This document shows, piece by piece, positions 35,209-64,000 of a DNA stretch of 64,000 bases. The position numbers and the translations under genes are program-made. Positions within the stretch are counted from its first letter, which is position 1; the number at the start of each line of letters is the position of its first letter. The stretch is from Gemmata palustris (GTDB lineage Bacteria; Planctomycetota; Planctomycetia; Gemmatales; Gemmataceae): NCBI RefSeq assembly GCF_017939745.1, contig NZ_JAGKQQ010000001.1, positions 2,232,001 to 2,296,000 of the forward strand, in the 5' to 3' direction. Below the pieces are notes generated by a model. It had not been told where the DNA came from, did not search any database, and saw only the letters and a program-made list of their open reading frames with translations.

Positions 35209-35990
35209 GCGGCGCCTCGGTGGCTCTTCCAGTCGAAAACGATCAGCTTGCCGCCGTTCTCCTTCAGCCGGTCGATCACCCGCTCGCCGGCGAACTCGGT
35301 CAGCGCCGGCAGCGCGAGGTTGCTGATCAGGACCGTCGGCTTCATCTGCTCGTACCGCTCGTTCACGATCTCGAAGAGGATGTTCCGCTCGGCGTCGGAC
35401 CCGTACTGCACCCCGATCTCGTCGAGGATGAGCAGGTCGGGTGCGGCGAAGGCCGAGAGTGCGTCCTGCTCGCTCACCTGCGAATTCTTCCGGTAAGTGT
35501 CCTTCACCTTGCGGAATGCCCGGCCCGCGGTCATGTACACGGCCGCCTTCGAGTGATTTCGGATGACCTGGTCGGCGACGGCGCAGGCGAGGTGCGTCTT
35601 CCCGGTGCCGGCGTTGCCGCACAGGATCAGCGAGGTGCCGGTGCGGAGGTGGTCGAGGAACCGGTCGGCATAGCTCCGGCAGGTCGCCAGGGCCTTCGCC
35701 GAGCTGGAGTCGGTCGCGGTGAAGGCGGCGAAGGACTTACCCTCGAAGCGGGGCGGGACGGCGGCGTGCTGAAGGTGCTTCCGGATCAGGCGGTCACGGT
35801 GCTCCGCGGTATCCCGTATCTGCCTTGCGGCCTCCTCGTCGGAGCGAGCCTGCTCCTGCTCGGCTTCGCACACCGGGCACCGCGCGGGAGCCCAGTCCGC
35901 AAAGAGCCTGAACAACCTGACCCTCTGCGGGCCGTGGGTGGGGCAGTCCAGCGTCTCGAACCGTTCTTCCATCTTCAACTCGCTGGACAT
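35205..35990 (-). CDS. DnaC-like helicase loader ATPase
   Basis: From ATG 35990 the 261-residue protein has an N-terminal zinc-binding part (CPTHG and CPVCEAE), then an AAA+ core with LILCGNAGTGKTHLA (Walker A) and LLILDEIG (Walker B). It would load a replicative helicase, possibly the host DnaB. The start is chosen because GAGGT lies eight bases before it and it follows the stop of the DUF1376 gene by one base; longer frames overlap that gene. Confidence 0.88.
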   Translation of the reverse strand: MSSELKMEERFETLDCPTHGPQRVRLFRLFADWAPARCPVCEAEQEQARSDEEAARQIRDTAEHRDRLIRKHLQHAAVPPRFEGKSFAAFTATDSSSAKALATCRSYADRFLDHLRTGTSLILCGNAGTGKTHLACAVADQVIRNHSKAAVYMTAGRAFRKVKDTYRKNSQVSEQDALSAFAAPDLLILDEIGVQYGSDAERNILFEIVNERYEQMKPTVLISNLALPALTEFAGERVIDRLKENGGKLIVFDWKSHRGAA

Positions 35991-49210: not shown

Positions 49211-52000
49211 ATGATTCGCATGAGAGACATACGCGACGCAAAAAGTGCCGCGTCATATTACGGCAAGTCAGATGGCGGGTATTACCTCGGCGCGTCTGAC
49301 CTCCGCCGCGAGGTCGGTGGCAACGCCGCCTCCCTGCTCGGCATTTCCGGTGTCCCCGACCCCGACCAATTCAAGCGGCTCCTCCAGGGCCTGCACCCCG
49401 AGACCGGCGAGCAACTCACCTCGAAGCTCGTTGACGGCAGGCTGGCCGGCTGGGACATCACGGCCTCGATTCCCAAGGGCGTGACCATCGCCATCGAACG
49501 TGGTGACGCCCGCATCCACGACGCCCTGTGGGAAGCCGCCCGCGAGACGATGGCCGAAGTCGAGGGGATGATTGCCACCCGGAAGCGGAAGGGCGGCGCG
49601 ATGGAAGACCGGGTGACCGGCAACCTCATGTGGTTCGGGTTCGAGCACCCTGAGACGCGGCCCGCCCGGTCGGACGGGATGCCTGACCCCGACCGGCACA
49701 TCCACCTGGTCGTCCCGAACCTGACCTTCGACACGGTCGAGGGTGAGTGGAAGGCCATCAAGTTCCGCCCCGTGATGGAACTGCGGAAGTACTTCGACCG
49801 CGCCTTCGACGCCCGGTTAGCCAGAAAGCTGACTGACCTCGGCTACGGCATCGAGACCCGCATGAAACCGGACGGGCAAGGCGGCAAGCGGTTCTACACC
49901 TGGGACATCAAGGACATGCCGAAGTCGGTGGTGGAGAAATTCTCCCGTCGCACGGCGGAGGTTGAGGCACTGGCCGAGAAGCTCGGCATCGACGGCCCGG
50001 CGAAAGACAAGCTCGGTGCAACGTCGCGGCAGTTCAAGCGGGACGACATGACGCTGGAGGATTACCGCCGCTACTGGGACGGCCGCGTGACGCCGGACGA
50101 AGCCCGGCAGGTGGCCGAGGTCATCCGGTCGGCGATGCTCGGGCAGAACCCGCCGGAGAAGGGCAGCGTGCGAGAGGCGGTGGAGTATTCGCTGTCGCAC
50201 AACTTCGAGCGGCGGTCGGTGGTCGCTCAGCCCCAGGTCGCGATAACCGCCCTGGAACGCGGCATGGGCGTGGTGCGGCCGGAAGACGTGATGCCGGAAG
50301 CGAAGCGGCAGGGGCTGCTGTTGAAGGACGGCGAGGCGACGACGCGGGACGTGCTGGCCGAGGAGCAGAAGGTCATCGCGTTCGCCCGTGGCGGGCGTGG
50401 GTCGTGCCGGGCGATGGGCAACGAAAAAGGCCGCCCCAACGAGTCGGAGCGGCCTTCAGGCAGAGGGCTTGCTCCCCATAGACTCGACCACACTGCCACA
50501 CCCTCCCCCGAACGGCAAGCGGTTTCTGCGCCAGCCCTCTCCCCTGAGCAGGCCGTCATGGTGAACCACGTCCTCACCTCGCCCGACCGGGTGATGCTGG
50601 TGGTGGGCGACGCGGGCACGGGCAAGACATTCGCGGTGCGGCAGGCGTTCCAGCGGATCGACCGTCCGGTGGACATCATCGCCCCCGGCGCCGAGGCGTC
50701 ACGCGGCGTGCTGCGGCGGGAAGGCTTCCAGAATGCCGACACCGTCACCGCGTTCTTGAACAGCGCGCAGCGGCAGCAGGCGGTGAAGAACGGCGTCATC
50801 TGGGTGGACGAGGCCGGGCAGCTTCCCATCCGCGACCTGTCCCGGCTGGTGGCCGTGGCGGAAGCCCAGAACGCCCGGCTGGTGCTTCAGGGCGACCCGA
50901 AGCAGCACCGCGCCGTGGCGCGCGACGGGAACATGCTCCGGGTGCTGGAGCGGTACGCGGGGCTTCCAGTGGCGCGGCTCAAGGACATCCGCCGCCAGAA
51001 GGGGGATTACAAGCAGGCGGTGGCTTCCATCGCGGCGGGGAACATCACCGACGGTTTCGACAAGCTGAACGCCCTCGGCTGGGTGAAGCAGACGCCGGTG
51101 TTCGACCACAACCAGCCCCTGGTGGACGCCTACCTCGAAGCGGTGGACACCAAGCGCAGCGACCAGGACATCACCGACCGCGTGCTGGCCGTGTCGCCGA
51201 CGCACGCCGAGGCGAACGAGGTCACAGCGGCCATCCGCGACGGGCTGAAGCAGCGCGGGCTGCTGGCCACGGAGGAGCGCACCGTCCCCACCCTCACCCC
51301 GCTGCACTGGACGGACGCCGAGAAGGCCGACCTGGAGCGGTACGACGGCACCGAAGTTGTGCGATACCACCGCGACGGGGGAACGTTCAAGGCCGGGCGG
51401 GTCGTCGCCATCGCGGACTTCAAGCCGGGCGACCGGCTGGGCAAGCCGACTACCTTCGCGGTGTACTCGCCGGCGGAGCTGCAACTAGCCGAGGGCGACC
51501 GCATCCGCATCACCGGCGGCGGCTGGACGACGGACAAGAAGCACCGCCTCGACAACGGGGCGCAGTATCAGGTGGCGGGGTTCGAGGAATCCGGCGCCAT
51601 CCGGCTCACGAACGGCTGGCACATCCCGGCGGGCTTCGGTCACCTCGCCCACGGCTACGTCGCCACCTCGCACTCTTCTCAGGGGAAGACCGTTGACCGC
51701 GTGCTCATCGCCATGGGGCACGAGTCGCTCCCGGCCATCACCGCCGAGCAGTTCTACGTCAGCGTGTCACGAGGCCGCGACCAGGCGACCGTCTTCACCG
51801 GCATGGCTCCGGCGGTGCTTCGTGACGCCATCAAGCGGGCGGACGAGCGGAAGTCAGCGACGGAGTTGATGAAGCCGAAGCGGCGACGGGAGTGGTGGAT
51901 GGCGCGGCGCGCACGGCAGGTGTGGGAAGCCTTGCGCGGGCGTAGCAAGGGTGGTATGTCCGAGCGGCAAAAGCAGAAGGAGCACAGCCATGCAAGGTAA
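49211..52000 (+). CDS. MobF-family (TrwC/TraI-like) conjugative relaxase-helicase
   Basis: The 929-residue protein has an N-terminal relaxase domain with paired tyrosines at 16/17 and 24/25, matching Y18 and Y26 of TrwC. The three-histidine metal site is His146 and His163/165 (FGFEHPE, DRHIHLVVPN). Its C-terminal RecD-like helicase has VVGDAGTGKTFA near 465, VIWVDEAGQL, LQGDPKQH and the late VATSHSSQGKTVDRV. It would nick oriT, stay attached to the strand and unwind it. ATG 49211 follows AGGTGG; the frame extends to 49022 but without family similarity. The linker near 393-430 carries an inverted repeat. Confidence 0.92.
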   Translation: MIRMRDIRDAKSAASYYGKSDGGYYLGASDLRREVGGNAASLLGISGVPDPDQFKRLLQGLHPETGEQLTSKLVDGRLAGWDITASIPKGVTIAIERGDARIHDALWEAARETMAEVEGMIATRKRKGGAMEDRVTGNLMWFGFEHPETRPARSDGMPDPDRHIHLVVPNLTFDTVEGEWKAIKFRPVMELRKYFDRAFDARLARKLTDLGYGIETRMKPDGQGGKRFYTWDIKDMPKSVVEKFSRRTAEVEALAEKLGIDGPAKDKLGATSRQFKRDDMTLEDYRRYWDGRVTPDEARQVAEVIRSAMLGQNPPEKGSVREAVEYSLSHNFERRSVVAQPQVAITALERGMGVVRPEDVMPEAKRQGLLLKDGEATTRDVLAEEQKVIAFARGGRGSCRAMGNEKGRPNESERPSGRGLAPHRLDHTATPSPERQAVSAPALSPEQAVMVNHVLTSPDRVMLVVGDAGTGKTFAVRQAFQRIDRPVDIIAPGAEASRGVLRREGFQNADTVTAFLNSAQRQQAVKNGVIWVDEAGQLPIRDLSRLVAVAEAQNARLVLQGDPKQHRAVARDGNMLRVLERYAGLPVARLKDIRRQKGDYKQAVASIAAGNITDGFDKLNALGWVKQTPVFDHNQPLVDAYLEAVDTKRSDQDITDRVLAVSPTHAEANEVTAAIRDGLKQRGLLATEERTVPTLTPLHWTDAEKADLERYDGTEVVRYHRDGGTFKAGRVVAIADFKPGDRLGKPTTFAVYSPAELQLAEGDRIRITGGGWTTDKKHRLDNGAQYQVAGFEESGAIRLTNGWHIPAGFGHLAHGYVATSHSSQGKTVDRVLIAMGHESLPAITAEQFYVSVSRGRDQATVFTGMAPAVLRDAIKRADERKSATELMKPKRRREWWMARRARQVWEALRGRSKGGMSERQKQKEHSHAR
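50427..50456. repeat. Inverted repeat inside the relaxase linker
   Basis: The perfect 8-bp arms aaggccgc and gcggcctt are 14 bases apart, preceded by five As. It lies in the low-complexity linker (GNEKGRPNESERPSG) between the relaxase and helicase domains. Confidence 0.55.
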
Positions 52001-52427
52001 GTTTTCGGCATTCCGTAAGAACGGCGAAGTGGCGGAAGATGTGCCGCCGCAACAGGACGCCGGGGGCGACGAGGAGGCGCTGCCGTTCACCGCGATGACG
52101 CCGCAGTCGTGGCCGCGTCCGGCGAACAAGACGCTGCCGCGCCTGCACATCGTCAAGAAGGACGGCAGCGTGGTCACGATGATGTATTTTCACCTTGATA
52201 GCCACGCGACCTACAAGGGTGGCGAGTTCACGCTGCTGTTCACGGGGGCCAAGCACTGGCAGGTGACGGTCAAGGGAAGCGGGCCGAAGTTCTGGGAGGT
52301 TTATGATTACCTCACGCTCGCCCGCTGGCCGTTCCTGGTAGAGGCCACGCATGGGTTCAAGGCCGGCGACGGCGACACGGTGTTCGACTCCATCGACATC
52401 AAGGACGTGTCGCCGAAAGAGCGGTGA
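51990..52427 (+). CDS. Hypothetical protein coupled to the relaxase (145 aa)
   Basis: ATG 51990 has AGAAGGAG upstream and overlaps the last 11 bases of the relaxase gene. The N-terminus is polar. Residues about 50-145 look like a small beta barrel (RLHIVKKDGSVVTMMYFHLD, GEFTLLFTGAKHWQVTVKG). Co-translation suggests a role in DNA transfer or maintenance, which remains a guess. Confidence 0.65.
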   Translation: MQGKFSAFRKNGEVAEDVPPQQDAGGDEEALPFTAMTPQSWPRPANKTLPRLHIVKKDGSVVTMMYFHLDSHATYKGGEFTLLFTGAKHWQVTVKGSGPKFWEVYDYLTLARWPFLVEATHGFKAGDGDTVFDSIDIKDVSPKER

Positions 52428-52523
52428 CTCAGGGCGGAGCAGACCGCGCCTACCGACGTTCGGATGTCCTCCTCGTACCGCCGCTGGTTGACTCCCCCCA
52501 CCCACTCGTGCCATAACTGCTGG

Positions 52524-53339
52524 ATGAACCTCGCCTGGCTTACCGACATCCACCTCAACTTCCTGCGCCCGCCCGCGCAGGCGGCCTTCGTTGCCATGCT
52601 CGCCGACACGGCGGCCGATGCATTCGTCCTCACCGGCGACATCGCCGAGGCCGACGACGTCGCGGTTCACCTTCACGCATTTGCCGACCGAGTTGCTCGC
52701 CCGGTGTACTTCGTCCTCGGCAACCACGACTTCTATCGAGGTTCGATTGCCGGCGTGCGGGAGAAGGTGCGGTCGCTATGCTCGGTCACTCCGAACCTGC
52801 ACTGGCTGCCCGATGCGGGCGTGGTGCCGCTCACCGACGAGGCGTGCCTGGTCGGCCACGACGGCTGGGGTGACGGGCGGTTCGGCGACTACCACGGTTC
52901 CGACGTACTGCTGAACGACTTCGGGCTGATCGGGGAGTTCGGCGGGTTCGAGGAAGACCCGAACGAACGGCTGGCCAAGCTCCACGCCCTCGGCGACGAG
53001 GCGGCCGCACATTTCCGCTCCGTGCTGCCGGACGCGCTCGCCCGGTTCCGGCACGTCCTCGTGGCGACGCACGTTCCGCCGTTCCGCGAGTCCTGCTGGC
53101 ACGAGGGGAAGGTCTCCGGCGACGACTGGCTGCCGTTCTTCTCCTGCAAGGCGGTTGGGGATGTACTGTTCGAGGTGATGGCGGCCGCGCCTGACCGGAC
53201 AATGACCGTGCTGTGCGGCCACACTCACGGCTACGGCGGGGTGGACATCCTGCCGAACCTTCGCGTGCTCACCGGCGGCGCGAAGTACGGGCGGCCGGAG
53301 GTTCAGCGGCTCATCGAACTCAGCGGGCAAGGTGGTTGA
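52524..53339 (+). CDS. Calcineurin-like metallophosphoesterase
   Basis: The 271-residue protein has all the metal motifs in order: WLTDIHLNF, LTGDIAEAD, VLGNHDFYRG, LVATHVPPF and LCGHTHGYGG. It hydrolyses phosphoester bonds, but the substrate cannot be told. Start ATG 52524 gives the family-typical N-terminus. It stands alone 96 bases after the relaxase pair and could be cargo or a defence or nucleotide-processing enzyme. Confidence 0.88.
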   Translation: MNLAWLTDIHLNFLRPPAQAAFVAMLADTAADAFVLTGDIAEADDVAVHLHAFADRVARPVYFVLGNHDFYRGSIAGVREKVRSLCSVTPNLHWLPDAGVVPLTDEACLVGHDGWGDGRFGDYHGSDVLLNDFGLIGEFGGFEEDPNERLAKLHALGDEAAAHFRSVLPDALARFRHVLVATHVPPFRESCWHEGKVSGDDWLPFFSCKAVGDVLFEVMAAAPDRTMTVLCGHTHGYGGVDILPNLRVLTGGAKYGRPEVQRLIELSGQGG

Positions 53340-53359
53340 CTCCATCGTCACCCGTGTCG

Positions 53360-53530
53360 TCATTCCCGCCCGCCCGCGTTCTTCACCCGCAGCTCCGCCT
53401 CGTACAGCGCGTAGGCTTTCTGCCGCACCGCCTCGCTGTCCGGCGGAAATTGGCCTGTTTCCCGCCACACCTCGGCGAACGCAATCAGCGAGACGCAGTG
53501 GAACAGGTCGCGGGTGATTTCTTCCGTCAT
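53360..53530 (-). CDS. Small helical protein (56 aa), last gene of the long leftward operon
   Basis: The product starts MTEEITRDLFHCVSLIAFAE and continues VWRETGQFPPDSEAVRQKAY, a pattern seen in small phage proteins. Its ATG overlaps the upstream stop. It ends 20 bases from the convergent phosphoesterase gene. Confidence 0.6.
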   Translation of the reverse strand: MTEEITRDLFHCVSLIAFAEVWRETGQFPPDSEAVRQKAYALYEAELRVKNAGGRE

Positions 53531-53802
53531 GCACGTCCCCGCACCGTGCGGCGTTCGACGAGCGTCGCCCAGATTTCCGATGCAAGCTCGGCGGCCCGCT
53601 TCGCCCAGGCGTCCGCACCCGGAACACCCGCTGGGTACACCGCCTCCACCCACATTGTGCCGTGGTCGGTGACGGTCAGAAGCGATGCCCCGGCCGGGGT
53701 GGCCAGCACGGAGCGGAGCTGACGCTTGAAAGCCGAGCAACCGTCGAAAGCGAGCTTGTACTGTCCGGGAGCAGTGCCGAGGTGAACGCGGGCGAGGGTC
53801 AA
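53527..53802 (-). CDS. Hypothetical protein (91 aa)
   Basis: The product contains TDHGTMWVEAVYPAGVPGAD and a C-terminal helix. It is linked to both neighbours by ATGA-type overlaps. No family was recognised. Confidence 0.58.
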   Translation of the reverse strand: MTLARVHLGTAPGQYKLAFDGCSAFKRQLRSVLATPAGASLLTVTDHGTMWVEAVYPAGVPGADAWAKRAAELASEIWATLVERRTVRGRA

Positions 53803-54326
53803 GCAGATAACGCACAGCCAGAAGCCGCGTCCTCTGTCGCTCGAATCGGCTTCACCAACACTCCGGCCAACCCGGAGGAGGCAATCGCGGCAACGTTGTT
53901 CTGCCCGTAGGCGATGAGACAGCTCGGGGCGTTCGCGCTCGCGGCCTTCGTGCCGTCAACGTGGTGGAAGGCTAACCGACCCTTGAAGAAGAACACCGCG
54001 TCGGCCTTCGCCCAGATTTCGGCGTGAAAACCCTTCGTTTCCGTCCGGGCGAAGATGAGCCCGATGGCGTTGCCGTGCTCGGCGCAGCGGTTCATCCACT
54101 TGAAGGTTTCCGCACCGTAGGGCGGGTTGCACCAGACCCGGCCTTCCCACGGTTGACGCAGCCCGTCGTCGTCCACGGTGTAGTGCCGCGAAGCCATTTC
54201 CCACGGGCGGTTAACCGGGGCGCACGGGTCGAGGTCGAACTGGCCGAGGGCGCGGATGATGTGCGGAGGGGTGAGCCACTCGTCTTTGCTGCTCTCCGAG
54301 ATGACGTGGTTGAAGCCGTGAGTCAT
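53799..54326 (-). CDS. Phage Dam-type DNA N6-adenine methyltransferase
   Basis: The 175-residue protein has EWLTPPHIIRALGQFDLDPC and VWCNPPYGAETFKWMNRC, the hallmarks of the phage Dam family PF05869, with catalytic NPPY. It methylates adenine in phage DNA, probably against restriction. It is coupled to both neighbours. Confidence 0.9.
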   Translation of the reverse strand: MTHGFNHVISESSKDEWLTPPHIIRALGQFDLDPCAPVNRPWEMASRHYTVDDDGLRQPWEGRVWCNPPYGAETFKWMNRCAEHGNAIGLIFARTETKGFHAEIWAKADAVFFFKGRLAFHHVDGTKAASANAPSCLIAYGQNNVAAIASSGLAGVLVKPIRATEDAASGCALSA

Positions 54327-55303
54327 GCAACGTAATCCTTCTCTATCAGGCCCAACTCGGCCTTACCCGCCAAGTGCGGGTTCCACCAGAACACACCGGT
54401 GCGGCAGCATTTGAAATGCCCACGCCGCCAGTGCAGTCGCCGCTTGCCGTGAGCGGCCTCATCCGCATCGAACCGTTCCGCCAATCGTAACCCGGCCTTT
54501 ACCTGCTTGTTCAGGTCGACGATGTGGTGGCTGAACAAAGGCGGCTTGCCGTTCTTCGACCGTTTGTGGTTGAGAGCGGTCAGGTCGTCGCACGGTCGGG
54601 TCTCGGTGATCCGAGGAGAGTTGATGCGGACGACATAGTCGACGATCAACAGGGCCATGCCCGGCCAGCGCTCCAGTTCGCCGTCCACCTCCACCTTGCA
54701 GTCGCCGCCCTCGGCCAACCGGACGGTGTCAGGCCAGATGGTTCCCTCGGTGACGTGCAGGTAGCCAACCCCTGCCGCGTCGGCCAGCCGGACCTGCACC
54801 CCTCGCCCGTCGTCCCCGGCTGCAGTCAGTAATGCCCCGAAGTGATGGGCTGGATGATCCGAAAACTCCCACTCCATCCACATAGGGTCATGAGACAGCC
54901 GGAACCACTTAGCCGCATCCGCCACGGTCTGCGGCGTGGCGAGTTTGGTCAGGCTGGCGTCCGCGAATGCGCGGGTAAGTGCGAAACGCTGGGCGCGGGC
55001 GACATCCTCACGGAAAGCGAAGTGCCGCTCCTCCGACATGCTCCCATCCAAGAGGCGGAACGCCGTCTTGCCATCGCACGAGTTCATGATTGCCAACTGT
55101 CGGTCGAGAGCGGCGAAGTATGCCCGCAGTTGATCTTGGGAGAAACCGGCCTTCTCCAGCATGTCTCTCGCCTGCTCATTCGTGATATCGGACGCTCGGT
55201 GGGCATCGACGATCAGGTGAACCGGCTCAAGCTCTGTTGGAACCTGGGACCGGATCGAAGCTTCGGTGTGCCATTTGGCAGATGCAATGCGGTCACACAG
55301 CAT
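54323..55303 (-). CDS. Conserved phage protein (326 aa), function unknown
   Basis: The protein is helical at the N-terminus and has a C-terminal RLHWRRGHFKCCRTGVFWWN motif and a final LIEKDY, features I recall from a protein widespread in proteobacterial phages. ATG 55303 has an AAAGGA eight bases upstream; ATG 55312 is the alternative. Confidence 0.65.
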   Translation of the reverse strand: MLCDRIASAKWHTEASIRSQVPTELEPVHLIVDAHRASDITNEQARDMLEKAGFSQDQLRAYFAALDRQLAIMNSCDGKTAFRLLDGSMSEERHFAFREDVARAQRFALTRAFADASLTKLATPQTVADAAKWFRLSHDPMWMEWEFSDHPAHHFGALLTAAGDDGRGVQVRLADAAGVGYLHVTEGTIWPDTVRLAEGGDCKVEVDGELERWPGMALLIVDYVVRINSPRITETRPCDDLTALNHKRSKNGKPPLFSHHIVDLNKQVKAGLRLAERFDADEAAHGKRRLHWRRGHFKCCRTGVFWWNPHLAGKAELGLIEKDYVA

Positions 55304-55568
55304 GACAGCCATCCTTTCCCGCCAACGTGTCCACGTCCACGAACTTCACCAAGTCGAGCCGCTGGGCAATCTGCCCCGCTGGGAACTCGTCCTTGTGCCG
55401 ATTCCAGAAGCCCCGGCAGCAAGCGTCGTCAGAGTGGTGGCAGATGCGGTGGCCCTTGAAGCCGCCGTGCGGGTCGGCTACGTCGGCTTCGAGCTTGGCG
55501 AGGTCGAGCGGCGAATCCTTGCGGTAGATGCAGGTTGAGCAAGCGGTTTTCTGGACGCGGAAGGTCAT
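55293..55568 (-). CDS. Cys/His-rich small phage protein (91 aa)
   Basis: The product has ACSTCIYRKDSPLDLAKLEA, HRICHHSDDACCRGFWNRH and GQIAQRLDLVKFV, a pattern found in many phages that is likely a zinc-binding module. It lies between the C5 methyltransferase and the previous gene with overlaps. Confidence 0.7.
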   Translation of the reverse strand: MTFRVQKTACSTCIYRKDSPLDLAKLEADVADPHGGFKGHRICHHSDDACCRGFWNRHKDEFPAGQIAQRLDLVKFVDVDTLAGKDGCHAV

Positions 55569-57226: not shown

Positions 57227-57609
57227 GCTGCCTCGCTTTCTGCCGCAGGCACGTCGTCATCCCAGACGGTGAAGGTTTCCAGCGGCGCGTCCCAGCCATT
57301 CGGGTACACGTCGATGACCATCCCCTGGTCGGTACGAATGACGGTGACGGTGAACTTGCCAGCGACGTGGACGTCTGCGCGGTCGGGGGCGGCGTCTGAG
57401 CGGCTTGTGGTGACGCCGGGGACATGCCCCTCGTCGAAACCGAAGTCCCGGCAATTGACCGTGACGGCTTCGCGGAAGTCGGTATCGGCAGGCAATTCAG
57501 CCCAGTAGTCGGCGGCCTCACGGTCGTTGGCGATGAGCCACTGGCGGGCTTGTTCCTGCGTCATGGCGTCGATGTCGGCCTGGCAGGTAACGGGGGGTGT
57601 GCGGGTCAT
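57223..57609 (-). CDS. Hypothetical protein (128 aa)
   Basis: The N-terminus is helical (DIDAMTQEQARQWLIANDRE). The C-terminal beta region (VHVAGKFTVTVIRTDQGMVI) is followed by an acidic tail. It overlaps both neighbours by four bases. Confidence 0.6.
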   Translation of the reverse strand: MTRTPPVTCQADIDAMTQEQARQWLIANDREAADYWAELPADTDFREAVTVNCRDFGFDEGHVPGVTTSRSDAAPDRADVHVAGKFTVTVIRTDQGMVIDVYPNGWDAPLETFTVWDDDVPAAESEAA

Positions 57610-58010
57610 GCTGCCCTCCCGGTCGCTTCGGCGATAACTTCGTTTGCCTCTACCAACGCCTCGACGAGGTGCCGGCTGCGATAGCCGTGTGGGCAGTCCT
57701 CGTCAGCGTGCTCTGCAAGTGACTGGAGAGATTCCAACAGGCTCTGTCCCGCGTGCATTACCCGCAGCCGGTTCCGTACTGATTTCGTGTCGGCAAACGG
57801 TATCCCCGTGATTCGCTGGAACACCTGCTCGGCGTGCTCGCGGGTGGCAAAGTCGCCGATGGCCTCCACACCCCCTTCGGGAAGGTGGCCGTACAGCGTC
57901 CAGACATCAGCCTCGTGCGGCACGCACACCTCGAAGTAGAAGTGACCGGGCTTGTCCGGCTCCTCGGTGCGGGTGCAGGGGCTGATTTCGTAGTTGTCGA
58001 AGGGCTTCAT
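57606..58010 (-). CDS. Hypothetical protein (134 aa)
   Basis: The N-terminal half resembles a small beta sheet (GHFYFEVCVPHEADVWTLYG). The rest is helical with EHAEQVFQRI and CPHGYRSRHLVEALVEAN. It is coupled by overlaps on both sides. Confidence 0.6.
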   Translation of the reverse strand: MKPFDNYEISPCTRTEEPDKPGHFYFEVCVPHEADVWTLYGHLPEGGVEAIGDFATREHAEQVFQRITGIPFADTKSVRNRLRVMHAGQSLLESLQSLAEHADEDCPHGYRSRHLVEALVEANEVIAEATGRAA

Positions 58011-58306
58011 GCTGCCTCCTTGCCGGTGGCGTTACCAATGGCGGCACGAACTATCGCAAGTGTTTTGCTCCTGCTTGCATCCCTACCCTTGACACGATTC
58101 TGTTCGATGTGATGGCGTTCCACCTCCTTCAGCGCTTCCAGCAGATCGGCCCGGCCTGCGTCAATGCCTTGCTGGGCAGCGACCAGGATTGCCTCTCGCA
58201 TCTTCGCCGTGCTGTAGTGGCGTAGGCCGCTTCCAGCAGCGGTGAGGACGGCGTCAGCGAGTGCCTTGGCTTCCGGCGCGTGCTTCTGTTCGGTCAATTT
58301 CGTCAT
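58007..58306 (-). CDS. Small helical protein (99 aa)
   Basis: From ATG 58306 (GAAAGGA upstream) the product starts MTKLTEQKHAPEAKALADAV and is helical, with an ADLLEALKEVERHHIEQNRV coil. Longer frames bypass this ribosome-binding site and run through a hairpin. Confidence 0.6.
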   Translation of the reverse strand: MTKLTEQKHAPEAKALADAVLTAAGSGLRHYSTAKMREAILVAAQQGIDAGRADLLEALKEVERHHIEQNRVKGRDASRSKTLAIVRAAIGNATGKEAA

Positions 58307-58390
58307 GCAAATCCTTTCTTCAGTTCTCAGCCCCGCCAATCGGGGCCGTATGGTGTTCAGTGAGAAGCCGGTGGTGGCTGCGGCGGGCAA

Positions 58391-58433
58391 GGGGAAAAGC
58401 CGAGGCTCCCTCTTGGGAAACGGTCTTTTCCCC
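58391..58433. repeat. Strong hairpin within the leftward operon
   Basis: The arms ggggaaaag and cttttcccc (9 bp, then ccg/cgg) enclose a second stem, tccc-tctt-ggga. It lies in the 200-base gap between the phosphoribosyltransferase gene and the next gene, the largest gap in this operon, and may be an RNA processing or attenuation site. The rest of the gap shows no gene. Confidence 0.55.
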
Positions 58434-58506
58434 TTGAGCGACGTGGCTCCGGCTTCATCGTCACCAGATAAACGGCCTGGCGGGGGTGAGTGGTGGGGGA
58501 TGTGGG

Positions 58507-58875
58507 TCATGCAGCCAGAGCCTTCTCATGCCGGTACCGCTGCGGCTTCCCAGCCTCATACCAGAAGGCCACCCGGGGCGGCTCCTCGAAGCAGGCGACC
58601 ACGATGGGGCTTGCCTCGGCGTACCGCCGCTCCGCCTTCCGCAGAGTCGCGCCGCTCTCCCGGGCCGTGTCGATGATCAGCAGGCGGCCGAGATGGCTGG
58701 GGCACGGCGAGCCGTAGGGGATGAACGGCACCCCGAGCAGGTGGGAGGCGTAGGCCGCCGCCACGGCTCCAGAGCGTCCGGGGCCGGTGACGCTGCCGAT
58801 GTCATCCGGGAGGACGGTGAGGACTTCGACCAGACGGGCGTGGAACTCGGACTCGGACACGATGCGGGCGCTCAC
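58507..58875 (-). CDS. Phosphoribosyltransferase-like protein
   Basis: The 122-residue protein has GSVTGPGRSGAVAAAYASHL, GVPFIPYG and LLIIDTARESGATLRKAE, the last being the PRPP-binding loop of type I phosphoribosyltransferases. The classical DD pair before the loop is ID here. It may salvage nucleotides or modify a nucleobase or NAD precursor. It is shorter than most of the family. Confidence 0.7.
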   Translation of the reverse strand: MSARIVSESEFHARLVEVLTVLPDDIGSVTGPGRSGAVAAAYASHLLGVPFIPYGSPCPSHLGRLLIIDTARESGATLRKAERRYAEASPIVVACFEEPPRVAFWYEAGKPQRYRHEKALAA

Positions 58876-59117
58876 GGCTGGCCATCCAGCTTGGCGAGGA
58901 GGGCTTCAGCCTCTGCGATGACAGCCTTATCGCGTGAATATCGAGGCTCGACCGCTTTGAGTTGGCGGGTCACCTTCTCGAGCATCTGCCGCATCTGTTC
59001 TGCGTGGCAGGCGTCGATGGCAGCTTGGGCGGCGTTGATACGGTCGCCACGGGCGACGTACACATGCAGGGCGGCCTTCACCCGCTCCAACAGTGGGGGA
59101 TTCAAAACAGCGGTCAC
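58872..59117 (-). CDS. Small helical protein (81 aa)
   Basis: The GTG at 59117 overlaps the upstream TGA; ATG 59126 is the alternative. The product has PLLERVKAALHVYVARGDRI and a long helix to its end. No family was recognised. Confidence 0.55.
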   Translation of the reverse strand: MTAVLNPPLLERVKAALHVYVARGDRINAAQAAIDACHAEQMRQMLEKVTRQLKAVEPRYSRDKAVIAEAEALLAKLDGQP

Positions 59118-59602
59118 GGCTCGCATCCCTTTCCGACATTCCCGCTGTCCACCTCGCTGGTGAACTCGCGCCAGTGCCGCCACCCTTGCGGGCAGTGAAA
59201 GCCCCACTCGCGGATCTTCGGTCCGGTGATGAACAGCGTCCAGGCAGGCACAGCTCTACCATCCTCGCGCAACAGTTCGAGGCGGTGGGCGTGCGTCGCC
59301 CGGCGGAAGACGATTCCCCCAGCGAAACGGACGCTCACCCCGTCGGTGGTGTGCTCGATGTAGCCGCCTTTCAGGATGACGCTCAGGCTGATCCACGGAT
59401 GGTCATGGAGTGCCCTGTCGTCATCGTCCCGCAGGAACTTGTGCAGGTAGATGTTGAAAAGTCGATTTCGCGGGATGACCCACCAGCGGAGCAGGTACGG
59501 GTTGTCCCTGCCGCCGATGTAGAAATCCGGCTCCCGGTAGAAGGGACGGACCAGACGCTTGGCCACGCGCTCCACCAGCGAACTCCGCAACCCGGCACTC
59601 AC
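59114..59602 (-). CDS. Cupin-like phage protein (162 aa)
   Basis: From GTG 59602 the product carries ALHDHPWISLSVILKGGYIE and ATHAHRLEL, spaced as the metal-binding His residues of a cupin barrel. A typical FITGPKIREWGFHCPQGW end follows. Similar proteins are common in phages; their function is unknown. The start overlaps the upstream TGA; longer frames are Arg- and His-rich and not protein-like. Confidence 0.7.
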   Translation of the reverse strand: MSAGLRSSLVERVAKRLVRPFYREPDFYIGGRDNPYLLRWWVIPRNRLFNIYLHKFLRDDDDRALHDHPWISLSVILKGGYIEHTTDGVSVRFAGGIVFRRATHAHRLELLREDGRAVPAWTLFITGPKIREWGFHCPQGWRHWREFTSEVDSGNVGKGCEP

Positions 59603-59751
59603 CGCTCCATCTCCCGGCATTCCTTCCGCCGCAGCAGTTCGTTCAGCCCGAAGCAGCCGAGCAGGGACGCTCCCAGCAAGGTGGCCGTGGCGAAGGCGAA
59701 GGCCAGCAGGTCGGGGGTGTCGGAGGTGGCGGTGTCGGTGGGGTCGGTCAT
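59599..59751 (-). CDS. Tiny membrane protein (50 aa)
   Basis: The product has one hydrophobic helix (LLAFAFATATLLGASLLGCF) and a charged tail. It overlaps its neighbours at both ends. Confidence 0.55.
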   Translation of the reverse strand: MTDPTDTATSDTPDLLAFAFATATLLGASLLGCFGLNELLRRKECREMER

Positions 59752-59972
59752 GGCTTCGGCTCGCTGACATGCGTGAGCAGGTAGCAACCGCTGATGCCTT
59801 CGAGGAAGACCACGGCGCTGTGGCCAGAAAGGACGAACGCCTCCGAGCGAGTCTTGGTGCGAACAGGAATGGGCTCGAAGTCCTTCTTCAGCATCACCTC
59901 GGAACCGACGGGGAACTGGCGGTTGAACGCTTCGACGGCTTTATCCGGGGAGCGACGCGAGGCGGCTTTCAT
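59748..59972 (-). CDS. Hypothetical protein (74 aa)
   Basis: A basic N-terminus is followed by a beta-rich part (VGSEVMLKKDFEPIPVRTKT, HSAVVFLEG). It may be a small SH3-like barrel. It overlaps both neighbours. Confidence 0.58.
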   Translation of the reverse strand: MKAASRRSPDKAVEAFNRQFPVGSEVMLKKDFEPIPVRTKTRSEAFVLSGHSAVVFLEGISGCYLLTHVSEPKP

Positions 59973-60145
59973 TGTCCCCTCTTCAGGCGGTGCCGCCGCT
60001 TCTGGGATGCCCGTTGCTGCTTGCGTGCGCCCGTCTTCTTCTTTGACCGGGGCAGCGACGTGGCCCCCCGCTCGACGAATGTAATCGGGTCGCCTTGAAA
60101 TGCCGACAGTGCAAATGCCGCCGATAGTGATAACAGTGACTTCAT
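59969..60145 (-). CDS. Small secreted basic protein (58 aa)
   Basis: The frame from ATG 60145 (AGGAGGAG upstream) begins MKSLLSLSAAFALSAFQG, a likely signal peptide. A short neutral segment and a strongly basic tail (SKKKTGARKQQRASQKRRH) follow. It was read directly from the reverse strand. Confidence 0.55.
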   Translation of the reverse strand: MKSLLSLSAAFALSAFQGDPITFVERGATSLPRSKKKTGARKQQRASQKRRHRLKRGQ

Positions 60146-60169
60146 ACTCCTCCTTGCCCTGCGGGCGGT

Positions 60170-60370
60170 TTACTTCGTTACTCGTTCAGCCCATCCGGGC
60201 TTCTTCTCTCCAGGCTGCTGCCGATGCACCGCCGCGCGGTACGCCACGGCGCAGTCCCAGAGTTCGCGTACAGCGGCGTTCGGTGTCGCCTGGGCGCGGA
60301 GCCACCCGAGGCGCTCCATCGCCTTGTCGGCTTCCTCGACGCTGTTGATGCGGGGTTTGCGGCGAGTCAT
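60170..60370 (-). CDS. Small helical protein (66 aa)
   Basis: The product contains VEEADKAMERLGWLRAQATP and WDCAVAYRAAVHRQQ. Its ATG overlaps the upstream stop. No family was recognised. Confidence 0.58.
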   Translation of the reverse strand: MTRRKPRINSVEEADKAMERLGWLRAQATPNAAVRELWDCAVAYRAAVHRQQPGEKKPGWAERVTK

Positions 60371-60540
60371 GGTTGGACACCACGCCGCTTGAGTTCGAGG
60401 AACTTGAACGGGTCGATGAATGGCTCCGACCGTAGAGCGTGCTGCAAAGCTATCGTGGGCATCGCCGCAACGTCGGCCGGGATGTCGCGCGTGAACATTG
60501 CATCGCGTTGATTCCTAAATGTTGCCGCGTCTACGCTCAC
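60367..60540 (-). CDS. Small hypothetical protein (57 aa)
   Basis: GTG 60540 overlaps the upstream TGA as GTGA. The product ends ALRSEPFIDPFKFLELKRRG, a pattern like short phage regulatory peptides. No function is known. Confidence 0.52.
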   Translation of the reverse strand: MSVDAATFRNQRDAMFTRDIPADVAAMPTIALQHALRSEPFIDPFKFLELKRRGVQP

Positions 60541-61112
60541 TTCGCCCCCTGCTTCTTGCTTACCGCCGCCTTGCGGTTTTCCAGCGTGTCGTCCAGGTAT
60601 GTGATTTCCGCGAGCGGCGCATCCACCGACGAGTTCGTCGTTTCCCACGGTCTCGTCTTGCTGACACGGTTGCCACTCACGCAGAAGCGGTCACCGTCCC
60701 AGCCGAATCCGCAACTCCATTGGGCGTACGTTTCGCCAGCGTGGAGGAAAAGCCGACCGCGATGCTGGTCGATTTCACGCACCAAGACCTTCTTTCGTTC
60801 ATCCAGCGAGCATTGCTCCGTTTCGAGTTGCGCTATCGCCGCGAGCGTTTCGTCGGACACCAGTTCGACGGACTTCGCCGTTGCGACCGCTGCTTTCTGG
60901 CAGGCGTTGCAAATGATCGGCTTCTGGCTCATTGCTTGGGCTTCTACCCTCAGTTTCGAGCGATACTCAGCACGGTTTTCAGGTGTTGCAATGCTGTTGA
61001 AACCGGTTGAGACTGTTCGCTTGAATCCCCTTCCGCATGAGGCACATCTCGCCTCGTAGCCTTCACGGATGGTGTTCCAGCCGTAGCGGATTGTTTGGGT
61101 AACGACTGTCAT
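60537..61112 (-). CDS. Zinc-binding hypothetical protein (191 aa)
   Basis: From ATG 61112 the protein starts with a zinc ribbon (RCASCGRGFKRTVSTGF, then IICNACQKAA). A coiled middle (AAIAQLETEQCSLDERKK) and a beta-rich end follow. It may bind DNA. It overlaps both neighbours. Confidence 0.62.
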   Translation of the reverse strand: MTVVTQTIRYGWNTIREGYEARCASCGRGFKRTVSTGFNSIATPENRAEYRSKLRVEAQAMSQKPIICNACQKAAVATAKSVELVSDETLAAIAQLETEQCSLDERKKVLVREIDQHRGRLFLHAGETYAQWSCGFGWDGDRFCVSGNRVSKTRPWETTNSSVDAPLAEITYLDDTLENRKAAVSKKQGAK

Positions 61113-61228
61113 TTCTTCGCCTCCTGCTTCTTCTTCCGCCACGCCTTCAGCCTGCACACGGGGGAGCAGAACACCTGCCATGCGCGTGTGGGCGTGAACT
61201 TCTTTCCGCACTGCGGACAGGTGGTCAT
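61109..61228 (-). CDS. Tiny zinc-ribbon protein (39 aa)
   Basis: The product begins MTTCPQCGKKFTPTRAWQVF and continues CSPVCR, a CxxC/CxxxC zinc module with a Lys-rich tail. ATG 61228 and TGA 61111-61109 overlap the neighbouring genes. It was read directly from the reverse strand. Confidence 0.6.
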   Translation of the reverse strand: MTTCPQCGKKFTPTRAWQVFCSPVCRLKAWRKKKQEAKK

Positions 61229-61491
61229 GCGGCCTCGGCAGGGACGACGACGGTTTCCCCGGCGGCCGTATTGATTTTGTCCATGTACCGCTTCCTCGAC
61301 TCTTCGCTGGGGAACGACCCGCCGATGTCACCTTGGTGAAAGTGGTATCGCGTGCTGGGCCCGCCGGATTCCGCAGCCTTTAGGAACGCATCCCCGTCGG
61401 CTGTGCGGTGAATGTAAGAGCTGCCGCCGAACGGTCCTTCCAGTTCTCCTGCACCCTTTAGAAATTTCACTTGTAGAGCCTTGTCTTTCAT
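61225..61491 (-). CDS. Hypothetical protein (88 aa), first gene of the long leftward operon
   Basis: GGAGG precedes ATG 61491. The product has GPFGGSSYIHRTADGDAFLK and a C-terminal helix. The 175-base gap upstream (61492-61666) is AT-richer than average, divergent from the Gp88-like gene, and must carry the operon promoter. Confidence 0.6.
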   Translation of the reverse strand: MKDKALQVKFLKGAGELEGPFGGSSYIHRTADGDAFLKAAESGGPSTRYHFHQGDIGGSFPSEESRKRYMDKINTAAGETVVVPAEAA

Positions 61492-61666
61492 GATGTGCCT
61501 CCATGTTTGATATGCGTTTCGACCGTAGCGCAACGCATTTCATCTGTCCAGCACTTTCGTAACGCTTGCGCGAATTACTGAACTGTGACTTCCTCGCCGG
61601 GTTTCGAGGTTCATGCGTCTGGGGTGTTCCCAGCCGTGTGGCCTCTTACCCGTGCGAGGTGCAGTC
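61492..61666. promoter_or_regulatory. Divergent promoter region between leftward operon and Gp88-like gene
   Basis: The gap holds TTGCGC on the minus strand about 15 bases before TATCAA, a poor but possible -35/-10 pair for the leftward operon. No gene is seen in it. Confidence 0.35.
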
Positions 61667-62332
61667 ATGCACACCGTTCGAGGTCTGCTGGTCGCTGGAA
61701 ACGAGAAGCTTTCGAGCCAAGCTCATCACTTCGACCTGCCTGCTGGCCTGACCTGTCCTGGCAAAACCAAGCTGTGTCACGGCCGATGCTACGCGCGGAA
61801 AGGCCGGTTCGCCTTCCCGCAAGTTCAGGAGCGCCTTCGCTGGTGCCACGAACAGTCCAAGCGGGACGACTTCGCCGATCGCCTGGTCGACGAACTCTAC
61901 CGCAAGGGCGTGCTGCTGATGCGCTGGCACTGCTCGGGTGACGTGTACTCCCCCGGGTATGCCCGCAAGATGCTCGACATCATCGAGCGGTCCGAGCACA
62001 CGAAGTTCTGGGGTTACACCCGGAGCTGGAGCGTGCCGACGATCGCCCCAGTGCTGAAGGACATCGCAGCGCTACCGAACATGCAGCTCTGGCTGTCCGC
62101 CGACGCCGAGACGGGTTACCCCGACGAGGTGCCGGAGGGTGCGAGGGTGGCGTGGATGCAGACGGACGTGGAAGAGGACACGAGGGAGGCCGACCTGGTC
62201 TTTCTCGACCATCCGCTCCGGAAGCTGACACTGCCGCTCGCCGTGCTCGAAAAGGCTTGCCCCACTGAAACGCCGGAAGGCAAGAAGAAGGGGACGACCT
62301 GCGCGACGTGCCGCTACTGCTGGACGGAATGA
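61667..62332 (+). CDS. Gp88-like phage protein, Cys-rich
   Basis: The 221-residue protein has LPAGLTCPGKTKLCHGRCYA near the start, VLLMRWHCSGDVYSPGYARK in the middle, and TTCATCRYCW at the end, the layout of the mycobacteriophage Gp88 family. The clustered Cys may bind an iron-sulfur centre or zinc. ATG 61667 has GAGGTG upstream; 61613 is possible. It is followed by a terminator. Confidence 0.78.
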   Translation: MHTVRGLLVAGNEKLSSQAHHFDLPAGLTCPGKTKLCHGRCYARKGRFAFPQVQERLRWCHEQSKRDDFADRLVDELYRKGVLLMRWHCSGDVYSPGYARKMLDIIERSEHTKFWGYTRSWSVPTIAPVLKDIAALPNMQLWLSADAETGYPDEVPEGARVAWMQTDVEEDTREADLVFLDHPLRKLTLPLAVLEKACPTETPEGKKKGTTCATCRYCWTE

Positions 62333-62335
62333 AGA

Positions 62336-62381
62336 AAGGCCCGCTGCCGAACCCGAAAGGGCGACGCAACGGGCCTTCTCT
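62336..62381 (+). terminator. Intrinsic terminator after the Gp88-like gene
   Basis: The 8-bp stem aaggcccg / cgggcctt is followed by ctctttt. It starts three bases after the stop codon. The A-rich 5' side may also stop the convergent gene. Confidence 0.72.
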
Positions 62382-62401
62382 TTTGGCAGTCGGCGGGCTG
62401 G

Positions 62402-62947
62402 TTACGCGACGCCGCCGTAGCTGTGGGCGATGCCGCGTTCGTCACGCACCATCTTCGCCACCTCCTCGAACGCCCGCTCGGCCAGGATGCGGTCCTGCAC
62501 GCGAGTTTCGTACTCGATGGGGCGAATCCACTCCTTGTTGTCCTGATTCCAGCGGAAGCCGTGCTCCTTCAGCTTCGACTTCACCTCGTCCGACGGCTTC
62601 TCGTCGAACTTGATGGTGGACAGGTACGGGTTCTGGTGCTCGCGGAGTCGAACACCGGCGACCACATCGGTCATGCCCGCGGCGGAATACCCGGCCCGGC
62701 GACCAACTGCGTCCGCATGGCTCTGGCCATCTTGGCGGTGGGGCGCGAACCGGGCAGAGTGGCCGTTCTCGTGGGCGGCTTCCCGCTCGGCCGGTAGGTG
62801 CGTGCTGTTCGCCACGTCCTGCACGATGGCTGCGGCCTTTATGGCCGGGTCGAACTCGGCAGGGTTGAAGTCGGCGGCGGTGAGGGTGGGCTGTTCGGTG
62901 GCGGGCTGGCCGAGTTCGGCGACCGCTTTTTTCTTGGCTCGTGCCAT
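62402..62947 (-). CDS. Hypothetical protein with C-terminal LPD/ArdC-like segment (181 aa)
   Basis: The product starts MARAKKKAVAELGQPATEQP. It contains LREHQNPYLSTIKFDEKPSD and KLKEHGFRWNQDNKEWIRPI, a short module found in plasmid and phage DNA-processing proteins. AGAAGGA precedes ATG 62947. It may belong to the maintenance functions next to parB. Confidence 0.6.
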   Translation of the reverse strand: MARAKKKAVAELGQPATEQPTLTAADFNPAEFDPAIKAAAIVQDVANSTHLPAEREAAHENGHSARFAPHRQDGQSHADAVGRRAGYSAAGMTDVVAGVRLREHQNPYLSTIKFDEKPSDEVKSKLKEHGFRWNQDNKEWIRPIEYETRVQDRILAERAFEEVAKMVRDERGIAHSYGGVA

Positions 62948-63011
62948 GGGGCGATTCCTTCTGTTCTGGTTCGGTGTTCGCCCTGACGAGAACGGCGTGG
63001 CAAACGCATCC

Positions 63012-63040
63012 GGGGTAGCGCAGAACGTAACCCAAGTCAA
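63012..63040 (-). promoter_or_regulatory. Candidate promoter for the leftward gene at 62947
   Basis: On the minus strand TTGACT (63040-63035) and TACCCC (63017-63012) are 17 bases apart. The -35 box is good and the -10 box weak. Confidence 0.35.
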
Positions 63041-63069
63041 TTGCCGAAGTTGAGTTGCGCCCGGACGGC

Positions 63070-63150
63070 TTGCGGGCGGCGGCCTCGCGTACCTCTTGGA
63101 CAGCGGGGAGCAGCCCGCAGCACGACGGACTTTCTGGACGGCGGGGAGCA
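63070..63150 (-). pseudogene. Two short decayed copies of the DUF1559 LLPAVQ-x-VREAA motif
   Basis: On the minus strand the two copies read VLPAVQKVRRAA (near 63150-63112) and LLPAVQEVREAAAR (near 63113-63071), in different frames. The underlying direct repeats tggac-[ag]-gcggggagca lie at 63097-63112 and 63135-63150. The motif marks the N-terminal pseudopilin-like helix end of DUF1559 proteins, abundant in planctomycetes. No full gene remains. Confidence 0.45.
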
Positions 63151-63166
63151 CGAACGCGAACAGGTT

Positions 63167-63211
63167 TTTCGCGAAATCGCGCAACTGCCTTCATTTCAAG
63201 CAATTGCGCGA
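63167..63211. other. Palindrome cluster upstream of parB, candidate centromere
   Basis: A perfect palindrome tttcgcgaaa (63167-63176) is followed by the 8-bp inverted pair tcgcgcaa (63177-63184) and ttgcgcga (63204-63211). The cluster lies in the 389-base gap 62948-63336, the largest without a gene, 126 bases before parB. ParB-type proteins bind such sites next to their own gene. Confidence 0.42.
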
Positions 63212-63336
63212 CGCGGGCACGCATCCGCTTCTTTCTGCCGGTTCTGGCCTTGCGCTTTTTTGGAGATGCGCTACGCGGCGCGTTGACTTCATGCCTGCCA
63301 CTTCGCAGATGGGGGTAGCCCAACCGGAGGAGCAAC

Positions 63337-64000
63337 ATGCCGAAGCTCGAAAACAAGCCACTCTCGTGGCTCAAGCCTGACCCCAACCAGCCGCGCAAGT
63401 CGTTCATCGAGGCCGAATTGCGTCTCCTCGGCGAATCGCTGCGGCGCAAGCAACTGCAGCCGGTGCTGTGCCAGCCGGACGGCACCATCATCGCCGGGGA
63501 GCGGCGGTGGCGGGCGGCCACGCTCGTCGGCCTGCCCACGCTGGAAGTGAAGATTGCCGACGAGGTGCTGACCGACTCGCAGAAGCGGGTGTGGCAGCTC
63601 GTGGAGAACATGCTCCGCGCCGACCTGACGGGCTACGAGCAGTGGACGGCGTGCGCGGAGCTGATGTGCATGAACGCAGGCTGGCAGATGAAGGACGCGG
63701 CCGAGGCGCTGGGCCTCGACCCCAGCACCATCACCCGCATCCTGTCGCCGTCGAAGTGCGTGCAGGAGTGGCAGGACGCGTTGCGCGACGGGAAGGTCGG
63801 GATTACCGACTGCTACTCAGCTAGCAAGCTGCCGCAGGAGAAGCAAGCGGGTCTTCTCGCGCTCAAGCTGTCGGGTGCCAGCCGCGACCATCTCGAAGCG
63901 GTGGTGAAGAAGGCTCGCAGCACCAGCGCGTCCACGGTCAAGCTGGCCAAGGTTCGCTGCCCGCTGTCCACGGGGACGGTGGTTACGGTGCAGGGCGCGG
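63337..64000 (+). CDS. ParB-like partition protein (partial, runs off right edge)
   Basis: The first 221 residues show the ParB N-terminal nucleotide-binding domain with SWLKPDPNQPRKSF and the box TIIAGERRWRAATLVGLP near 50-67. The central helix-turn-helix MKDAAEALGLDPSTITRILS lies near 129-148. It would bind a centromere and act as a CTP-dependent clamp for plasmid segregation. GGAGGAG lies before ATG 63337. No parA is seen upstream; one may follow beyond the edge. Confidence 0.88.
   Translation, partial: MPKLENKPLSWLKPDPNQPRKSFIEAELRLLGESLRRKQLQPVLCQPDGTIIAGERRWRAATLVGLPTLEVKIADEVLTDSQKRVWQLVENMLRADLTGYEQWTACAELMCMNAGWQMKDAAEALGLDPSTITRILSPSKCVQEWQDALRDGKVGITDCYSASKLPQEKQAGLLALKLSGASRDHLEAVVKKARSTSASTVKLAKVRCPLSTGTVVTVQGA

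Follow-up and report, generated by a model that had tools for sequence, protein, structure and literature searches.

A candidate mobilisation module of MobF relaxase, ParB-like protein and VirD4/TraG coupling protein genes in a temperate siphovirus-like prophage of Gemmata palustris

Polyvalent proteins, the DarB-type methylase-helicase among them, are discussed for both phages and conjugative elements in the part of PMC5512222 that was available, and P1-like elements, according to the available parts of PMC10879196 and PMC12977533, possess relaxases and origins of transfer (oriTs) mainly where virion genes have been lost. The subject of this study is a stretch of 64,000 bp from the planctomycete Gemmata palustris (G000:C1:2232001-2296000, referred to below as the window), which lies within a contig of 8,313,494 bases in a genome of 9.23 Mb and 3 contigs. 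On balance, the window is judged to cover the greater part of a prophage, that of a temperate siphovirus, in which a mobilisation module is maintained that would mobilise the phage DNA. The module consists of a MobF relaxase, a ParB-like protein, a VirD4/TraG coupling protein and a tyrosine integrase, a composition of the kind seen in integrative and mobilizable elements, and it almost certainly belongs to the phage. The evidence comprises the genes themselves, the catalytic residues of the relaxase, purifying selection on related relaxases, and a gene order that is conserved in related prophages and in virus contigs. In the literature surveyed, as judged by titles and the openings of abstracts, no phage with a conserved relaxase and a coupling protein has been described.

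Comparison with known systems places the element between several of them. Like integrative and mobilizable elements with MobF relaxases, it has an integrase, a relaxase and a coupling protein, and no mating-pore genes were recognised; its pairing of ParB with the type IV secretion system (T4SS) coupling protein (T4CP) is shared with loci that have no portal match (G189, G133 and G155). It differs from them in a complete-looking set of virion and lysis genes. P1-like phage-plasmids share with it virion genes, plasmid-type genes and a DarB-like protein, whereas the element studied here is integrated in the assembly and yielded no ParA in a regular-expression search. In contrast to the polyvalent proteins treated in that part of PMC5512222, which are individual transferred proteins, the window phage has a relaxase and a coupling protein of its own.

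A further comparison is provided by pSR-4 of Skermanella rosea (NZ_CP086115.1; L263, L264), a circular sequence of 100,864 bp annotated as a plasmid, which has MobF, T4CP and ParB like the window phage and resembles it in portal (49% identity), capsid (48%), large terminase subunit (TerL, 40%), SSB (55%) and lysozyme (55%). Unlike the window element, it is a circular plasmid with a VirB gene set: VirB3, VirB4, a VirB5-type protein (PF07996), VirB6, VirB8, VirB10, a VirB11-type ATPase, VirD4 and MobF were identified by Pfam, and VirB9 by annotation. The phage head and tail genes are located on the same circle as the T4SS, and PLSDB types the plasmid as non-mobilizable. No phage-plasmid of Skermanella is described in the literature surveyed, and pSR-4 may be a prophage integrated in a conjugative plasmid. 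As the identity between its relaxase and that of the window is no more than about 25%, pSR-4 is, on the basis of these comparisons, a parallel case and not a direct ancestor.

The relaxase of the window has a TrwC domain joined to an SF1-type helicase, together with the two tyrosine pairs and three metal-binding histidines that characterise the MobF family. Tyr16/17, Tyr24/25 and His146/163/165 are present; phmmer aligns the protein to TrwC (1omh) and TraI (9f0z), and the full MobF relaxase-helicase with conserved tyrosines and histidines that the initial annotation had proposed is thus borne out by Pfam, phmmer and alignment. Y16, H146, H163 and H165 were invariant in all eight of the relaxases compared (8/8). 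In a larger alignment of 47 rows, every phage row that spans these positions retains the three histidines and the leading tyrosine of both pairs; the G179 relaxase has a gap at the second tyrosine pair. Three sequences that are short or lack the N-terminal part (L029, the second C8b frame and G000_2) were left out of this residue check and of the tree described below. Pairwise ratios of non-synonymous to synonymous substitution rates (dN/dS) were 0.206, 0.091, 0.165, 0.203 and 0.158 in five of five pairs of relatives, none of which includes the window relaxase, and two of which use IMG/VR records (L183 and L187) whose virion genes were not checked. As judged by these ratios, the relatives of the window relaxase are under purifying selection.

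The initial annotation had reported neither a coupling protein nor any type IV secretion gene. The former proved to be an effect of the window edge: a T4CP gene starts 795 bp past it, and its product has a T4SS-DNA_transf domain and three hydrophobic segments (by a simple hydropathy count), as expected of VirD4/TraG. The latter stands, in that no mating-pore gene was recognised in the element. The ParB gene noted previously was confirmed by its ParB_N match; it runs 131 bp past the end of the window, and one small called open reading frame separates it from the T4CP gene. To place this arrangement in context, 28 T4CP loci were considered, of which 8 are in elements shown to be phage and 3 (G189, G133 and G155) lacked a portal match over the stretch read; for the other 17, the surroundings were checked in part. 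A relative of ParB was present in 28/28 of these loci by single-linkage clustering, and the 30 listed of the 31 members of this cluster are situated upstream of T4CP on the same strand. With direct phmmer searches, the window ParB matched at 26/28 loci, in 24 of them on the same strand within 3 kb. No ParA was found by a narrow P-loop regular expression applied to the called proteins between the attachment (att) repeats. Because ParB regularly neighbours T4CP and this search gave no ParA, ParB is assigned here to the mobilisation module, and its presence is not taken as evidence of partition. Elsewhere in the same genome (G000:C1:814039-814950) a VirD4-like ATPase approximately 37% identical to the T4CP was observed, with no relaxase adjoining it among the matches listed; similar matches occur in about 17 of 19 genomes of the genus.

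The element is approximately 97.5 kb in length, from -23.48 to 73.99 kb in window numbering. It is bounded by a 17-bp repeat at the TatD gene, the first 17 bases of which recur at -23480, where a decayed copy of the integrase (DNA identity 72-75%) adjoins the repeat. Homology of the relatives G010 and G008 to the G. palustris genome starts at 73985 and 73988, i.e. at the TatD start; to the left of TatD, the stretches of their DNA that were compared gave no alignment above 80 bits to the element, and two short G008 alignments match near 91.5 kb instead. TatD was found a single time in each of 19/19 genomes of the genus, and in G009 this site is likewise occupied by an integrase, of 61% identity. 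The original left chromosomal flank was not placed, as the G010 sequence upstream of TatD maps to contig C2 of the G. palustris genome. It is apparent that one pair of att repeats encloses the whole element, phage genes and mobilisation genes alike, and that terminase, portal, capsid, tail and lysis genes occur with an integrase between att sites, as in temperate tailed phages. Inspection of the flanks for parA, integrase and circularity, which the initial annotation had proposed, yielded a tyrosine integrase, no ParA by the search described above, and an element that is integrated in this assembly. The phage-plasmid that it had envisaged was not upheld: there is no support for a phage-plasmid with a partition function, in view of the integration between att repeats in the 8.3 Mb contig and of ParB being the regular neighbour of T4CP.

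A search of 198 relatives gave positive results for the relaxase in 61/198 (at 1e-10), for the portal in 76/198 and for T4CP in 52/198, many of the 52 being due to a VirD4-like gene that matches less well and lies at another chromosomal position. The 11 portal matches with E <1e-100 were designated group A: two in G. palustris (including the window), one each in G141, G005, G179 and G182, and five in G028, a planctomycete of the same family, Gemmataceae. A MobF-type relaxase was found by tblastn and profile search in all 11 loci, the window included, at approximately 12-33 kb from the portal, with eight open frames of at least 900 aa; T4CP was found in 5/11, again including the window. In G141, the portal of which is 80% identical, T4CP, ParB, relaxase, portal, capsid, tail and DarB-like genes are ordered as in the window, and the position of the module on the early side of terminase is conserved in divergent phages. 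As a control, among the relaxase matches listed, a relaxase occurred within 60 kb in 6/11 group A loci versus 4/43 other portal rows (29 genomes); this contrast is partly biased, in that the 11/11 count includes relaxases found only in the fetched group A loci, while the other portals received a single look. A second related prophage in the G. palustris genome (G000:C1:5826989-5882571) has a relaxase frame of no more than 350 aa, and the search for T4CP gave none there.

Virus contigs from IMG/VR provided 37 portal loci, of which the 12 on contigs longer than 26 kb were searched whole for TrwC. The domain was present in four of these (G198, G199, G200 and G203), the last of which appears to be the C8a prophage of the G028 isolate again, and T4CP was present in G199, G200 and G203. 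In G199 (56.7 kb) and G200 (85.6 kb), the DarB-like gene, tail, capsid, portal, relaxase, ParB and T4CP follow the order of the window. The 8/12 contigs without TrwC comprise three of 27-35 kb with portals 55-66% identical to that of the window (one from the G028 isolate) and five with portals of 27-43% identity. Four further IMG/VR records had been chosen by their relaxase and are uninformative on portals. Taken together, the 11/11 close portal loci and the virus contigs answer the question, raised at the outset, of whether relaxase homologues co-occur with phage genes. They indicate that portal and relaxase are not neighbours by chance, and they support the suggestion that virion genes are combined with a full MobF relaxase in a single, plausibly mobilisable element, a case strengthened by the T4CP outside the window.

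The module was also found in phages of other types. In G176, a contractile-tailed phage, relaxase, ParB and T4CP lie beside a tail sheath (phrog_23, 134 bits), a portal (PF04860, 157 bits), a tape measure gene and TerL. The same phage type is represented by G005:C137 (TerL 81%, portal 82% identical), in which the relaxase is present and T4CP is broken into two frames. A third type, G050:C5, is likewise contractile-tailed and has a portal, a maturation protease and a sheath (phrog_205, 200 bits); its T4CP and relaxase genes share one strand, and ParB adjoins T4CP. A full-length T4CP is kept in group A, G176 and G050:C5, which represent three phage types. G067 combines tail genes of group B with another portal and a relaxase, and does not figure among the genomes positive for T4CP. 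In G002, capsid and tail genes of group A lie near the relaxase, with no portal match there. No match to group A or group B phage proteins was obtained in the stretches read around the relaxases of G008, G028:C4, G072 and G115. Against 50,697 phage records, the relaxase gave a single match, over 25% of its length, and T4CP gave 22, all below 60% identity. PHROGs contains no family that matched T4CP at E 0.001, and the families that matched the relaxase cover its helicase part only. In the G176 phage, a 510-aa protein of the head region begins with an Acb1 anti-CBASS domain (L238:3941-5470; 149 bits).

In the relaxase tree, six group A relaxases cluster with support of 81/99 at an open fork. 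A cluster of 18 rows (99/96) mixes six group A and two group B phages with ten ungrouped rows; G067, G002 and G050, which are ungrouped rows of that cluster, turned out to be phage loci. Another 20 ungrouped rows (18 different) form a cluster with support of 94/90, most of them without a check for phage genes. Because the phage relaxases mix with ungrouped rows, the tree indicates that the relaxase moved between elements or was lost more than once, and it does not reveal a single phage origin.

Features of the element are presented in Table 1. The terminase, capsid, portal, tape measure and lysis genes recognised initially in the same 64 kb were confirmed on the minus strand by Pfam and PHROGs. 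From approximately 33 to 7 kb this strand contains the virion and lysis genes, a small terminase (PF20901) included, with the DarB-like gene at its end. The early region encodes a DnaC-like loader, a primase, an exonuclease VIII-like protein, a Sak4-like protein, SSB and a GapR-like protein. Since no tail sheath was found among the element proteins scanned, the phage is termed siphovirus-like.

Table 1. Features of the G. palustris prophage. Positions below 1 or above 64000 continue the window numbering into the flanking loci L006, L003, L004 and L005. Gene calls come from a simple codon model made for this study; small genes and starts are approximate.
Feature	Position	Strand	Evidence or remark
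attL core	from -23480 (L006:8521)		repeat of TatD start
DarB-like methylase-helicase antirestriction protein, 1690 aa	835..5907	-	phrog_10089 1456 bits
Phage lysozyme	7309..7809	-	PF00959 115 bits
Tail tape measure protein	14253..15956	-	phrog_9483 98 bits
Major capsid protein, HK97 type	26848..28167	-	PF05065 245 bits
Prohead protease	28172..28813	-	PF04586 116 bits
Portal protein	30135..31463	-	PF04860 270 bits
Large terminase subunit (TerL)	31463..32875	-	phrog_38 346 bits; PF17289 57 bits
Prim-Pol / PriCT-2 primase, 224 aa	34224..34898	+	PF09250, PF08707
DnaC-like helicase loader (phage's own replication module)	35205..35990	-	phrog_50 249 bits
MobF relaxase-helicase, 929 aa	49211..52000	+	TrwC PF08751 194 bits (residues 10-293); AAA_30 127 bits (443-627)
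Gene of unknown function overlapping the relaxase end	51990..52427	+	no Pfam match; homologues adjoin the relaxase in G141 and G028_C3 (35% and 44% identity)
ParB-like protein	63337-64131 (63337..64000 in window)	+	ParB_N PF02195 45.9 bits
VirD4/TraG T4SS coupling protein (T4CP)	64795-66528 (L004:795-2528)	+	PF02534 240 bits; TraG-D_C 95 bits
Tyrosine integrase	72638-73831	-	PF00589 24.4 bits, below the Pfam cut-off of 27.1
attR core	73988-74004 (L004:9988)		start of TatD

Several other features were observed in and near the element. Approximately 17 kb inside the att repeats (-22743 to -5989; L006, L003) are occupied by BREX-like genes, including one for a HATPase_c_3 protein and one in which BrxL is fused to a protein kinase domain; the start of a neighbouring gene resembles PAPS reductase (by eye). 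Among the 17 other loci compared, these BREX-like genes have a single partial match, of 33%, in G028_C3. The element also encodes an LCIB-type beta carbonic anhydrase (68973-69782, L004; PF18599, 140 bits), with a 58% homologue in the G179 stretch. To the right of TatD, a separate insertion of 16 kb (76392-92494; L004, L005) carries a serine recombinase and a Toprim/AAA_25 protein and has no counterpart in G010 or G008. A repeat of approximately 40 bp in G010 (L111:9000-9045) matches at least 40 other short stretches in contigs C1 and C2 of the G. palustris genome, counted from the best 40 of 412 candidates.

From these genes, the following sequence of events may be proposed. The prophage would excise and circularise at the TatD site; the relaxase would nick an oriT in the phage DNA and remain on the 5' end, while its helicase domain unwinds the strand; and the ParB-associated coupling protein would hand the relaxase-bound strand to a mating channel that is apparently not encoded by the element. 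The phage would then have two exit routes, virions and conjugative mobilisation.

A number of results weigh against this proposal. No oriT was found, nor any strong inverted repeat beside the relaxase, in the 17 intergenic stretches scanned; the sole inverted repeat in these, with 12-base arms, lies at 63177-63211, upstream of ParB, and 8-mer enrichment upstream of ParB revealed no convincing shared motif. The relaxase of the phage-like locus G002 is gapped at both tyrosine pairs in the alignment. Within group A the relaxase is split or short in 3/11 loci (C8b, two frames; G000_2, 350 aa; G179, 551 aa), and T4CP was not found in 6/11: in G182 the contig stops 5.4 kb beyond the relaxase, and in the remaining five the stretches read contain no T4CP; the relaxase is accordingly more conserved than the coupling protein. 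Finally, because no mating-pore gene was recognised in the element, transfer is something that we infer. An integrative and conjugative element that is self-transmissible has its own mating-pore genes, VirB4 included, and these were not found in the G. palustris element, within the limited sensitivity of the searches. VirB4 was detected with PF03135 in 0/9 genomes, G. palustris included (control positive in 1/14 genomes), and with PF19044 in 0/198 at 1e-6 (best 8 candidates per genome; control 4/14). In 8/11 genomes PF19044 gave weak P-loop matches of 17-20 bits, none above the cut-off.

The negative result for the 198 genomes is weak, since PF19044 misses the VirB4 of pSR-4 at E 0.001; PF03135 reports it. 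A class-wide absence of VirB4 is weakened as a conclusion by this insensitivity, by the limit of 8 scored candidates per genome and by the fact that PF03135 was run on 9 genomes only. The pSR-4 VirB4 had no match in the viral contigs. A plasmid of Singulisphaera, pSINAC03 (NC_019895.1, L262), is typed in PLSDB as conjugative, MPF_T, and contains MobF and one VirD4-family gene, with no VirB among the 27 features listed; this typing counts against a missing channel in planctomycetes.

Other explanations of the module must be considered. The relaxase-helicase could have been recruited as a phage replication initiator of the rolling-circle type, for which gpA of P2 is a functional analogue, with T4CP and ParB as leftovers or as proteins that position DNA. 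The occurrence of the relaxase in 11/11 group A loci versus T4CP in 5/11 is in keeping with this idea, as are the lack of recognised mating-pore genes and of a replicative helicase among the phage proteins scanned. The phage does, however, have a DnaC-like loader, a primase, SSB, an exonuclease VIII-type protein and a Sak4-like protein, the ParB-T4CP pairing is the same in phage loci as in other loci, and T4CP remains full-length in group A, G176 and G050:C5. A replication role is considered rather unlikely. Less probable still is that a mobilizable element inserted in ancestral phages persists as neutral cargo that is being lost and has no present role. Such decay would account for the 6/11 group A loci without T4CP, for the split or short relaxases in 3/11, and for a tree in which phage relaxases form no single clade and are interspersed with ungrouped sequences, some of which have no phage match in their vicinity; it fits poorly with dN/dS values of 0.09-0.21 in relatives, with active sites that are kept, and with the conserved position of the module on the early side of terminase in divergent phages.

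The proteins might instead act on competing mobile elements, by exclusion or hijacking of incoming conjugative DNA, rather than in movement of the phage. The DarB-like antirestriction protein and the BREX-like genes within the att repeats would suit such a function, but relaxase catalysis that is kept, together with a coupling protein, would not be expected for exclusion, and MobF relatives are found on planctomycete plasmids typed as conjugative (pSINAC03, with its VirD4-family gene) or mobilizable (pK2D_1). We regard this explanation as very improbable. Neither of the two outcomes that had been named initially as refuting appeared, and it is now barely credible that the contig was wrongly joined or that a prophage merely adjoins a mobilisable element unrelated to it: on the right there is indeed a separate insertion with a serine recombinase, at 76.4-92.5 kb, but one pair of att repeats encloses everything, and the same order is present in other assemblies and in two virus contigs.

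Mobilisation of the phage by its own module thus remains the favoured explanation. It may tentatively be extended, with considerable doubt, to temperate phages of planctomycetes in general, with three or more types of virion, which would spread both by virions and by conjugation; MobF, ParB and VirD4 without a recognisable VirB4 would then point to a mating channel that has not been described. Phage and conjugative transfer are usually seen as alternatives, and yet a relaxase that keeps its catalytic residues recurs here beside virion genes in several phage types. These observations make mobilisation of a phage genome testable, as well as the action of MobF and VirD4 in planctomycetes, where VirB4 was not detected with searches of limited sensitivity. 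If the module works, the spread of these phages would not be limited by the receptors of their virions, and prophages would count among the elements that move by conjugation.

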